From Pseudanabaena sp. BC1403 (lineage in GTDB: Bacteria > Cyanobacteriota > Cyanobacteriia > Pseudanabaenales > Pseudanabaenaceae): 64,000 nucleotides of DNA. Under the pieces are notes generated by a model. The model saw only the letters and a list, made by a program, of their open reading frames with translations, was not told the origin of the DNA and searched no databases. This document shows, in pieces, positions 54,711 through 57,856 of this stretch. The position numbers were made by a program, and so were the translations under genes. Numbering within the stretch: position 1 is the stretch's first letter; every line of letters begins with the position of its first letter. The stretch covers positions 1-64,000 of the forward strand of contig NZ_PDDM01000029.1 of assembly GCF_002914585.1 (NCBI RefSeq), given 5' to 3'.

Positions 54711-55034
54711 GGAATTTTTAGCAAGCTTCTATAATTTATTCAAAAAAGCAGTCTAACGGGGGCTGTTCAGCAGCTGCCAATAAACTTTGCATCACCACCC
54801 GCAGCTTTAGCCAGTCCGCTGCAACAGTGTTGTTCGACCGTGCTGGGCTTTAGAAATGCTGTAGGTATTGGGTTTTCTCCAATTTTCCTCTATAATCTGA
54901 GGCGCTTTACTAGAGAAAGCCTACTTAAACTTCACACTCTATTTCACACTATTGGTATATCATAAGGGTAGTGAACAATAGGTATTATCTCTCGGCTCCA
55001 ACTATGATTAATTTCTTTGAAAGCTCTAAAAAGG
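54711..55034. other. Upstream region of the three-gene cassette
   Basis: No confident feature. Short leftward frames around 54750-54880 (for example one encoding SNNTVAADWLKLRVV) could be a transposase or toxin remnant, not recognised. TTTTAGCAAGCTTCTAT at 54717 also occurs at 3198. Promoter of the cassette presumably near 54950-55015. Confidence 0.4.
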
Positions 55035-55847
55035 ATGGAAAAGGTGGTTAATTTCAATCCATTCACTTCGCCACTACCCCAAGAGGTGCCCTTAAAAGAT
55101 GCACCCCTTATTCGAGTGATTGCACAGTTGCGCTTTCCACCTATTCTTTCAATTGGGAAGAGCGATTTTGTGGGTTCGTTTCAAGAAGCAATTTGTGAGA
55201 GCTATCCTATCCTCCAGCCTGAACAAACTCAGGGTTTTACTTTTAGTCATCAGGGTGTCGTTCCAATGGCACCTCAAGTTACTTGGCGGTTTGTAGATAA
55301 AGCGGATAACTGGAACTGGAGAGTTTCGTTAGCACCTAATTTTTTGGCGCTTGAAACGACGACTTACCTGAGTCGTCGTGATTTTTTAAAGCGTCTAGAA
55401 AATATACTTATTGCGCTTAATGATAGTTTTAAGCCTGCAAGTATCGAGCGTTTTGGATTGAGATACATTGACAGGATTGTTGGACAAAATTTGCAAGAGA
55501 TATCTTCTCTTGTAAAGCCTGAGATAGCGGGGATGATGGCTGTTAATTTTAGAGAACATATTCATCAAACCATCAGTGAATCTTTGTTCACTATTCCCGA
55601 CGGAGACGAGCAAATTGTTGCGAGATGGGGAGCTATGCCTGCTGGTGCAACTTTTGATCCAGAGGCGATAGAAGCTGTTGCAGATCCCAGTTGGATACTT
55701 GATCTTGACATGTCTGTTTCCAAGAATCGAGACTTCCGTGTTGAGGAGTTGATAAGTGAAGCACAACATTTTGCTGAAAGAATTTACACTTTCTTTCGAT
55801 GGGCGGTAGAAGATGATTTCTTAAAGCGTTATGGAGGTCAGCTATGA
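55035..55847 (+). CDS. TIGR04255 family protein
   Basis: About 270 aa from ATG 55035 (frame open from TTG 55017; GTG 55044 also possible). The stretch LKDAPLIRVIAQLRFPPILSI, then FSHQGVVPMAPQVTWRFVDK and WRVSLAPNFLALETTTYLSRRDFL, followed by RFGLRYIDRI, is the pattern of TIGR04255, a sporadic family of unknown function. Overlaps the next start by ATGA. First gene of the cassette at 55.0-57.3 kb. Confidence 0.8.
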   Translation: MEKVVNFNPFTSPLPQEVPLKDAPLIRVIAQLRFPPILSIGKSDFVGSFQEAICESYPILQPEQTQGFTFSHQGVVPMAPQVTWRFVDKADNWNWRVSLAPNFLALETTTYLSRRDFLKRLENILIALNDSFKPASIERFGLRYIDRIVGQNLQEISSLVKPEIAGMMAVNFREHIHQTISESLFTIPDGDEQIVARWGAMPAGATFDPEAIEAVADPSWILDLDMSVSKNRDFRVEELISEAQHFAERIYTFFRWAVEDDFLKRYGGQL

Positions 55848-56515
55848 ATGCGCTTTTGGCTAAACCAACTGTATTTATTCCCGATGTCGGAAAACCTAAT
55901 ATAAAACCTAATATAATTACATCAAGAATTTTAACCGCTCCCTCTGGTACAAGTACCTCCAGAGAAACTATTGATCGAAATTTAGTAGCTGCCTCAGAAA
56001 TGACAACGAGTGGAGTTACTATAGCATCGGCCAGTTCTCCAGAAGCAACACAAAAGGCTCTTAGTGAACTAAGAAGGTTAAGTGGATTAACTTGGGATCA
56101 ACTGGCAAAGATCTTTAATGTTTCTCGAAGAAGTCTTCATTTTTGGGCAAGTGGGCAACCGTTATCCCGCTTTAATGAGGAACATCTTAATCGACTTTTA
56201 GGTACTATTCGATATATTGACCAAGGAAGTGCAAATCTAAATCGCAGTCTTTTACTTCGTCCTGATAGTAATGGAAATCCCCTTCTCGATCTCCTGGTTG
56301 CAGGTAAATACGAAGAGTTCAAGCGGATCGCTGGTTCTAATAATGCGCCCCGAAGACCATTATTAGGTTCTCTGTCCGAAGATGCACGTAAAATGCGTAT
56401 GCCTCAGAAGCCCGAAGATCTAGTTGATGCTCTCAATGATCCTATCCATCGTGACGTAGGACGATCCAGACCAGCCAGAGCAGTAAGGAGCCGAAAAAAT
56501 AGTAGTGGTCAATGA
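55844..56515 (+). CDS. Helix-turn-helix protein of the three-gene cassette
   Basis: 223 aa. Disordered head (residues 1-60), then an XRE/antitoxin-like HTH at about 67-125: ATQKALSELRRLSGLTWDQLAKIFNVSRRSLHFWASGQPLSR. Basic tail PARAVRSRKNSSG. GGAGG at 55833 precedes the ATG by six bases. Likely DNA-binding; regulator or antitoxin-like role is inference from arrangement. Confidence 0.8.
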   Translation: MNALLAKPTVFIPDVGKPNIKPNIITSRILTAPSGTSTSRETIDRNLVAASEMTTSGVTIASASSPEATQKALSELRRLSGLTWDQLAKIFNVSRRSLHFWASGQPLSRFNEEHLNRLLGTIRYIDQGSANLNRSLLLRPDSNGNPLLDLLVAGKYEEFKRIAGSNNAPRRPLLGSLSEDARKMRMPQKPEDLVDALNDPIHRDVGRSRPARAVRSRKNSSGQ

Positions 56516-57344
56516 TCGTGTCATTTGGATTCAAGCAATAGACACCACTCTTTTAGAATGGTGTCAGGGTGATTGTGTGCTTGGAGAACACTGGTTCATC
56601 TATCGCTTTAACCCTCAACGACCTTTGACATCTGACTCTGCTGATGTTGCAAAGGAAGAAACTGATCTTGCAACATCTGAAGTCAAGGGTTTTACCATAG
56701 TCACACAGACCTGCGATATTGTTCGCAGTTGTAACGAACGCCCATTTGTTGAAATCGTCCCTCTTGTTGAGGTTGATGAGCAGCAGTTGCATGACGTTCA
56801 ACGAAGCAGGCGACCTCAATACGCTTACATTCCAGGGGTCGCGGAACTTTATCTTGTCGCTGACCTCAACCGTGTCATGACAGTAGAAAAGGCGGTTGTA
56901 GCAGAATGGGAGCGTAAACCTGGATGTCTTAATGATGACGAAATTAGGGTACTTGGGCAAGCACTGGCACGGAAACGTGCTCGATTTGCTTTCCCTGACG
57001 ACTTCACTGACTTTGCCAGAAAGCTCCAAAATCGTCTACGAGATAAGCATAATAAAGCTACTGATGAAGGAGAAGCACTTCGCGCCTTACGTGAGATTAG
57101 GGTACGTGCAGAACCTGCATGGAATAGTTCTGAAATCCAACTTATATTTTGGTTTATCCGAGATGAGGATCAGAATCAGTTCAAGGGAGTAGGATGGGAT
57201 CAATTTCTTAACCAGTGGCTGCAATTAATCCCTGAATCTGGACGATACAAAAATGTAGAAGGTTCAGTAGTCGCTTTGGAGGATATGACAGCAAAGGAGT
57301 ATGTTGAGAGCGATCCGTTGGATCTGGATCACTTATCCTCGTAA
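56505..57344 (+). CDS. Unknown protein with TQTCDI motif, third gene of the cassette
   Basis: 279 aa, unrecognised. Start GTG at 56505, overlapping the HTH gene by 11 bases; AAGGAG lies 14 bases upstream, and the only other nearby ATG (56512) is out of frame. The most regular part is GFTIVTQTCDIVRSCNERPFVEIVPLVEV (about 64-90), with Cys-Asp, then a YIPGVAELYLVADL strand, a basic helix RKRARFAFPDDFTDFARKLQNRLRDK and an acidic C-terminus. No signal peptide or membrane helix. Function unknown. Confidence 0.72.
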   Translation: MVNDRVIWIQAIDTTLLEWCQGDCVLGEHWFIYRFNPQRPLTSDSADVAKEETDLATSEVKGFTIVTQTCDIVRSCNERPFVEIVPLVEVDEQQLHDVQRSRRPQYAYIPGVAELYLVADLNRVMTVEKAVVAEWERKPGCLNDDEIRVLGQALARKRARFAFPDDFTDFARKLQNRLRDKHNKATDEGEALRALREIRVRAEPAWNSSEIQLIFWFIRDEDQNQFKGVGWDQFLNQWLQLIPESGRYKNVEGSVVALEDMTAKEYVESDPLDLDHLSS

Positions 57345-57856
57345 GGTACAGAATATGCTACTTTACTACTTGCAAGCTTCATGAGTAGTGATCTCTTGCC
57401 GAACCATTAAAGCTTTAGCTTATTGCTGAATCTCACGGTGCTTTAACGCTAAGCAATCATAGCCAGCAGTCAAGTAACGTCCCACAGATAACCTAGCTGC
57501 CTAACTATGTATTAGATGGAAATTTTCTGTCTAGTAAGACTATAAGCGATATAGCCTGAATGTCAATTTTCGGGCTAATCACCCTATACGGGGTGTTAGG
57601 CAGAAAATTTCTGGCTAATCACCCAAACCAAATGGCGTGTTAGCCCGACAACATAATGTATTATTCAGATTAGTTGCTTTATAATTTCATTATGTAAACT
57701 GAGCCGCCATCTCGGAAGTTTCTGGATCAAGTGAGGAATCGTATACGGGTTAAACATTAAGCTTACCGCACAGAGGAAACCTAATTGTCAGTCTTTTTAT
57801 TTGGATTTTTGTTCAAGCCGCTATAATGCAATCAAAAAAGCATCTAAAAAACATTC
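57345..57856. other. Intergenic region downstream of the cassette with nested palindromes
   Basis: 512 bases. Inverted repeats: GAAATTTTCTG (57521-57531)/CAGAAAATTTC (57601-57611); AATTTTCGGGCTAATCACCC...GGGGTGTTAGGCAGAAAATT (57566-57610); GGCTAATCACCC/GGCGTGTTAGCC (57613-57645). GCCTAAC (57499) and GTTAGGC (57595) are complementary 7-mers. No gene or known RNA identified; the binding-protein promoter should lie near 57700-57850. Confidence 0.5.

Follow-up and report, generated by a model that had tools for sequence, protein, structure and literature searches.

A putative tripartite toxin–antitoxin-like module carried as an integron gene cassette in Pseudanabaena sp. BC1403

Genes and features of the locus

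Between cysE and a binding-protein gene, the window (the whole stretch of 64,000 nucleotides of Pseudanabaena sp. BC1403 that was analysed) carries three overlapping genes and the parts of a chromosomal integron:

54751..54838, − strand: attC recombination site of the cassette (R and L boxes, extrahelical base; covariance model)
54757..57504, − strand: integron gene cassette, 2748 bp between crossover points (identity to L014/L015; sister genomes)
54930..54964, + strand: conserved promoter region containing TTCACACT repeats in tandem, a probable operator (hardly varies among 13 cyanobacterial loci)
55044..55847, + strand: P1, TIGR04255 protein (152.8 bits on TIGR04255; start refined to GTG 55044)
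55844..56515, + strand: P2, HTH protein related to MbcA-type antitoxins (family profile and HTH matches)
56505..57344, + strand: P3, predicted MazF/CcdB-fold protein with QGD and TQTCD motifs and a C-terminal extension (model, alignment)
57499..57691, − strand: attI region of the chromosomal integron, junction GCCTAAC at 57499-57505 (five sister genomes)
57692..57783, + strand: integron integrase relic of ~30 codons with a stop at codon 2 (intact integrases in L168 and L171)

The three genes are open reading frames on the + strand and overlap just as an earlier note on this DNA had read them: by 4 bp between P1 and P2 (55844-55847) and by 11 bp between P2 and P3 (56505-56515). Conservation does not extend to the ATG at 55035: in close relatives a stop codon follows it directly (ATG-TAA or ATG-TAG), and they share AAAGGA 5′ of the GTG at 55044. 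On both counts GTG 55044, rather than ATG 55035, is most likely the start of P1. Judged by their dN/dS values (0.13-0.37 across P1, P2 and P3, against three relatives), all three genes are under purifying selection. The tandem TTCACACT repeats ahead of P1 are a probable operator, an assignment made from sequence and without DNA-binding data.

P1 belongs to TIGR04255 (NCBIfam; E 1.4e-44, 152.8 bits against a cut-off of 30), as the earlier note had proposed. To our knowledge this is a sporadic family without an assigned role. It is unnamed in the literature searched, whose coverage left out most subscription papers and all preprints, and with these gaps, and a PADLOC copy from 2023, an existing description is not ruled out. 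The P1 model is confident (pLDDT 94). Its fold remains unnamed because every structural match, from arginine kinases at the top (Z 7.8) through Mediator Med18/20 and AdoMetDC to TBP-like proteins, falls below the reliability limit. A P1 profile compared with one SecB sequence gave no significant relation (P 0.26), and sequence searches of the PDB with P1 and P3 returned nothing usable.

The XRE-type HTH attributed to P2 is weak in the BC1403 protein itself (E 0.001-0.005, below Pfam cut-offs) and clearer among its relatives (best E 4.3e-7). A profile of the P2 family (57 sequences) matches mycobacterial MbcA (6fkg_C) at E 4.7e-8 over positions 87-173, in an alignment that spans the HTH and the domain after it; this is a family-profile result, the single P2 protein lying under Pfam and NCBIfam cut-offs. 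The N-terminal region is variable and Ser/Thr-rich, with a hydrophobic stretch in about one third of members. PF09722 gave no matches in relatives, and PADLOC-DB 2023 gave one weak HTH match for P2 (E 0.038) and none for P1 or P3. We name P2 MbcA-like, and not a member of a RES-Xre pair, because a RES domain, sought in P1, P2 and P3 with Pfam and NCBIfam, found no match in any of them.

P3 holds the Cys-Asp motif singled out in the earlier note (TQTCDI, residues 67-72) in a protein that matches no family in Pfam, NCBIfam, PADLOC or PHROGs. Nor did a housekeeping family, the identity that would have undone that note's reading, emerge from the sequence databases, the PDB or the fold search. The model of P3 (pLDDT 91.2) is predicted to have a MazF/CcdB fold at residues 15-160: MazF/Kid/CcdB toxins fill the best 50 structural matches listed, headed by MazF-mt3 (5hk0_A; VIA Z 10.0, 2.8 Å over 106 residues). 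Foldseek gives E 7.8e-4 against 4mzm_A, and phage PemK-like proteins are among the matches in the viral library. There are no activity data, and the relation to MazF is a statement about fold only, since sequence profiles miss it: PemK (PF02452) does not match P3 at E<=1, and profile-profile comparison with two MazF sequence sets is not significant (P about 0.2). The best local alignment of these profiles pairs DLDRVMTVEK with LEQIRTIDK, which alone is no evidence. Beyond the MazF/CcdB-fold part P3 has its C-terminal extension.

In a hand alignment, with no residue-level structural alignment behind it, the catalytic Arg and Thr of MazF fall on G62 and L87 of P3. Q21-G22-D23, Q68 and C70 are invariant in 57 P3 sequences, and D71 is nearly so. 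This apparent replacement, combined with the conservation of P3's own residues, suggests a chemistry that differs from that of MazF. The apparent lack of the catalytic residues also leaves room for an operon that serves regulation or metabolism and is not toxic, the MazF-like barrel of P3 then having a structural or binding role: a barrel fold alone shows no function, and the Cys-Asp motif could bind a metal or a ligand. We regard this as very unlikely in view of the antitoxin-like partner P2, the sporadic and mobile distribution, and the replacement of the effector by PIN and HEPN domains in other operons (see below).

A decayed chromosomal integron as the vehicle

The earlier note had seen an insertion between core genes, cysE and the binding-protein gene, with long non-coding flanks. 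Comparison with sister genomes confirms the insertion: in G305 (L167) cysE directly adjoins the binding-protein gene and there is no insert. The flanks, by contrast with that description, are integron parts, namely the attC site, the attI region and the integrase relic.

The cassette's canonical direction is leftward, from attI to cysE; P1, P2 and P3 run towards attI, opposite to the usual direction, and have their own promoter region. It is 93.4% identical to a cassette in Phormidesmis priestleyi (L014) and 86% identical to one in an Aphanocapsa MAG (L015). In both cases identity begins and ends at the cassette ends while the flanks are unrelated, and in P. priestleyi the cassette lies inside an array with five attC sites. 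The cassette is thus mobile, with the integron as its vehicle.

Two sisters (G303 and G300) retain an intact integrase here (454 and 471 bits on TIGR02249, cut-off 265), whereas only the relic is left in BC1403. Other sisters carry different cargo at the same site, for example a lone 141-residue gene, or an amidase and an IS element. The border NNNNAAC|TATGTATTAGA.GGAAA is common to BC1403 and five sisters, and the sequence to its left differs; on this sequence comparison it is the attI site. The attC at the cysE side shows the usual attC fold. A covariance model built from 12 attC sites shows covariation above that of shuffles and slid controls, a result that is partly circular because some of the sites were picked by pairing. 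Across the window the model finds only 54751-54838, itself a training sequence. Applied to 969 kb of module loci, it picks out sites only in L014 and L015, including three L014 sites outside the training set, and in 164 kb of sister integrons it gives 33 matches, a few of which are the same site in overlapping loci. Since attC sites were found in only these two of the other module loci, integrons are one vehicle among several.

The whole integron is flanked by a direct repeat (CAAGC..CTATAAT..A.TCAAAAAAGCA) at 54727-54757 and 57816-57847. The empty site in G305 (L167) has a single copy, so recombination at this repeat may account for gain or loss of the integron platform. Two sisters have a defence-like gene at the integron site (L169:2603-4244 and L173:2114-3115), which we take to be YhcG/DUF1016-like, and in one of them a small membrane protein is encoded beside it. 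In a further sister (G193) a transposase pair, presumably IS630-like, occupies the attI/intI region of the same locus (L166:2690-3930).

Integrons are known in Cyanobacteria (PMC2426708; PMC9668308), and Vibrio chromosomal integrons are stores of defence cassettes (PMC12409362); sedentary chromosomal integrons as carriers of such cassettes are treated there and in Darracq et al. 2025, which it cites. The BC1403 locus resembles these integrons (PMC12409362) in its attC and attI, in the integrase of its sisters and in the variable cargo at one site. It differs in being cyanobacterial, in having a single cassette left and a decayed integrase, and in that the cassette genes run towards attI from their own promoter region. 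A cyanobacterial chromosomal integron can therefore carry a module of this kind, as reported for the defence cassettes of Vibrio (PMC12409362).

Distribution of the module and exchange of the last gene

Scanning one genome per species (85,000 species) with the P3 alignment yielded 76 loci; viral contigs added 6. The order P1-P2-P3 is kept in 68 of the 72 P3-found loci with at least 1.8 kb of upstream sequence. A neighbourhood search thus finds the three families together elsewhere almost without exception, as the earlier note's idea of a coupled cassette supposes. With P1 and P2 upstream at this frequency, and dN/dS as low as given above, the linkage of the three genes is, by comparative analysis, not a matter of chance.

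Module loci lie on chromosomes, on plasmids and on phage-like contigs. By record title they come from Cyanobacteria, Alpha-, Beta- and Gammaproteobacteria, Myxococcales, Planctomycetes, Gemmatimonas, Acidobacteria, Chloroflexota, Actinomycetota and others, and single assignments are uncertain because many of the loci are MAGs. Among Cyanobacteria distribution is patchy: intact P3 occurs in 5 of 292 genomes, and one more has a broken copy. In the Desmonostoc copy (L068:8007-10450; L006/L007, G278) P3 is split by an insert of ~1.5 kb.

When plasmids were searched by tblastn with P3 as the only query, seven records came back, from Chroococcidiopsis, Sinorhizobium, Rhizobium (two), Sphingomonas, Kocuria and Paenarthrobacter. 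In all six records opened, a TIGR04255 gene is followed by a middle gene that aligns to P2 and then by P3; the seventh, a second R. etli plasmid, has P1 and P3 matches at the same spacing. Most of the plasmids are conjugative or mobilizable. Very distant triads, with P1 identity of only 20-29%, are found on plasmids of Pseudomonas putida, Robbsia, Meiothermus and Mesorhizobium and in an Acinetobacter phage-like contig, and their second and third genes are still matched by the P2 and P3 profiles.

That all seven plasmid matches carry the module, mostly on conjugative plasmids, invites the view that it serves addiction or stabilisation, keeping plasmids, genomic islands or the integron in place without any role in defence. 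Toxin-antitoxin genes are common stabilisers of mobile elements, and a cassette with its own promoter, turned against the usual direction, would suit such a purpose. Yet in BC1403 there is little to stabilise, because the integron is almost empty and its integrase lost, and simple addiction needs no third constant partner; we think this explanation improbable.

TIGR04255 genes are not confined to this arrangement. At 18 other cyanobacterial TIGR04255 loci the gene heads a short co-directional run in all but one, and genes 2 and 3 vary. The last gene encodes a PIN domain in one run (43.3 bits, Pfam cut-off 23.6) and a HEPN domain in another (33.6 bits, cut-off 22). In two loci gene 3, of 179 residues, is the counterpart of P3's MazF-fold half and carries LRQGDY and TQSCDL; in two more a similar gene has RQGEI and TQ[DN]CDL and matches the P3 profile weakly. 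The remaining loci have gene pairs without a known family. Were TIGR04255 a shared sensor or stabiliser, one would expect such a pattern, in which the first gene stays while toxin-like last genes are exchanged; the promiscuous Panacea antitoxins (PMC10440598) and CmdTAC (PMC11618068) offer comparisons.

Short relatives of the MazF-fold half of P3 lie downstream of other TIGR04255 genes at L177, L181, L175 and L176, and at L177 and L181 a small gene (~97 aa) stands between the two. Elsewhere (L179, L182, L183, L187 and similar loci) TIGR04255 is the first gene in four or more other kinds of operon, each with two unknown genes of ~180-208 aa and ~150-175 aa.

The constancy of P1 beside a changing effector slot (MazF-fold, PIN, HEPN) could also mean a dedicated antiphage system, with P1 sensing a phage component, P3 acting as an abortive-infection effector and P2 being only a transcription regulator. 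Chromosomal integrons are known stores of defence cassettes (PMC12409362), and the nearest neighbours of the module (129 genes scanned) include some defence or mobile-element genes. These neighbours are nonetheless heterogeneous and not consistently defence genes; no recurring fourth gene was found among the 129, and as the scan had no background set, it is no test of defence enrichment. There is, moreover, no PADLOC system match, and P2 aligns to an antitoxin beyond its HTH. A dedicated antiphage system is in our judgement unlikely, if the most serious of the alternatives.

A toxin–antitoxin-like reading with three partners

The explanation towards which we lean, with only modest confidence, is that the integron gene cassette carries about a toxin-antitoxin-like effector module of three parts. 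P3 would be the effector, with a MazF/CcdB fold and its own RQGD and TQTCD motifs, and would probably attack RNA or another core target; its toxicity, and any RNase activity, are inferred. P2 would be antitoxin and autorepressor: through its HTH it would bind the TTCACACT repeats ahead of P1, and through its MbcA-like domain it would keep P3 in check, neutralisation and DNA binding alike being inferences. P1, the constant third partner, would be a sensor or a stabiliser of P2 and would release P3 in response to a trigger such as phage invasion or the loss of the element; this role, the trigger and a part in phage defence are inferred.

Support for the three-partner reading comes from the fixed gene order, the module's own conserved promoter region and purifying selection, and from a patchy distribution that includes mostly conjugative or mobilizable plasmids. 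The earlier note's notion of a mobile defence, toxin-antitoxin or stress cassette stands as regards mobility, by way of the integron; its toxin-antitoxin part is supported, though not by activity data, in that P3 has a predicted MazF-type fold, P2 resembles the antitoxin MbcA, and PIN and HEPN domains take the effector's place in other operons. Against the three-partner reading, there is no detectable sequence relation between P3 and MazF, the catalytic Arg and Thr seem replaced (by hand alignment only), and a MazF-like fold, here a modelled one, does not by itself show activity. The kin of P2 usually pair with RES-domain toxins, not with MazF folds. Defence genes are not a constant feature of the mixed set of nearest neighbours, and there are no toxicity or phage data.

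The closest comparison is with TAC systems, including CmdTAC (PMC11618068), in which three coupled genes likewise provide an effector, an antitoxin and a third protein, here proposed to control the antitoxin; the CmdTAC chaperone senses a phage capsid protein (PMC11618068). TAC effectors also vary, as does the effector slot of TIGR04255 operons. In contrast to TAC, a profile of P1 shows no significant relation to the one SecB sequence compared, the effector is predicted to have a MazF-like fold, and the MbcA-like antitoxin carries its variable extension at the N-terminus instead of the C-terminus. P3 is like MazF/PemK/CcdB toxins in the predicted fold of residues 15-160 and in the place of its gene after an antitoxin gene; it departs from them in having no profile match, in its QGD and TQTCD motifs with an invariant Cys and in its added C-terminal domain, and the module lacks a MazE-type antitoxin. 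P2 aligns with the Xre/MbcA/ParS antitoxins of MbcTA and RES-Xre systems over the HTH and the next domain (E 4.7e-8), but the cassette has no RES toxin, P2 has an extra N-terminal region, and P1 is a third gene.

More tentatively, and in our view a plausible idea that may well prove wrong, TIGR04255 could be the shared sensor of undescribed, widespread and modular anti-invader operons, whose effectors are PIN, HEPN or new Cys-Asp (RQGD/TQTCD) MazF-fold proteins and for which integrons are one vehicle. Short operons headed by TIGR04255 and ending in toxin-like domains give the family a testable function, and among MazF-fold toxins the RQGD/TQTCD proteins would form a new branch, of unknown chemistry. 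The genome of Pseudanabaena sp. BC1403 contains 13 PemK/MazF-family genes, and the host is thus rich in ordinary MazF-type toxins besides P3.
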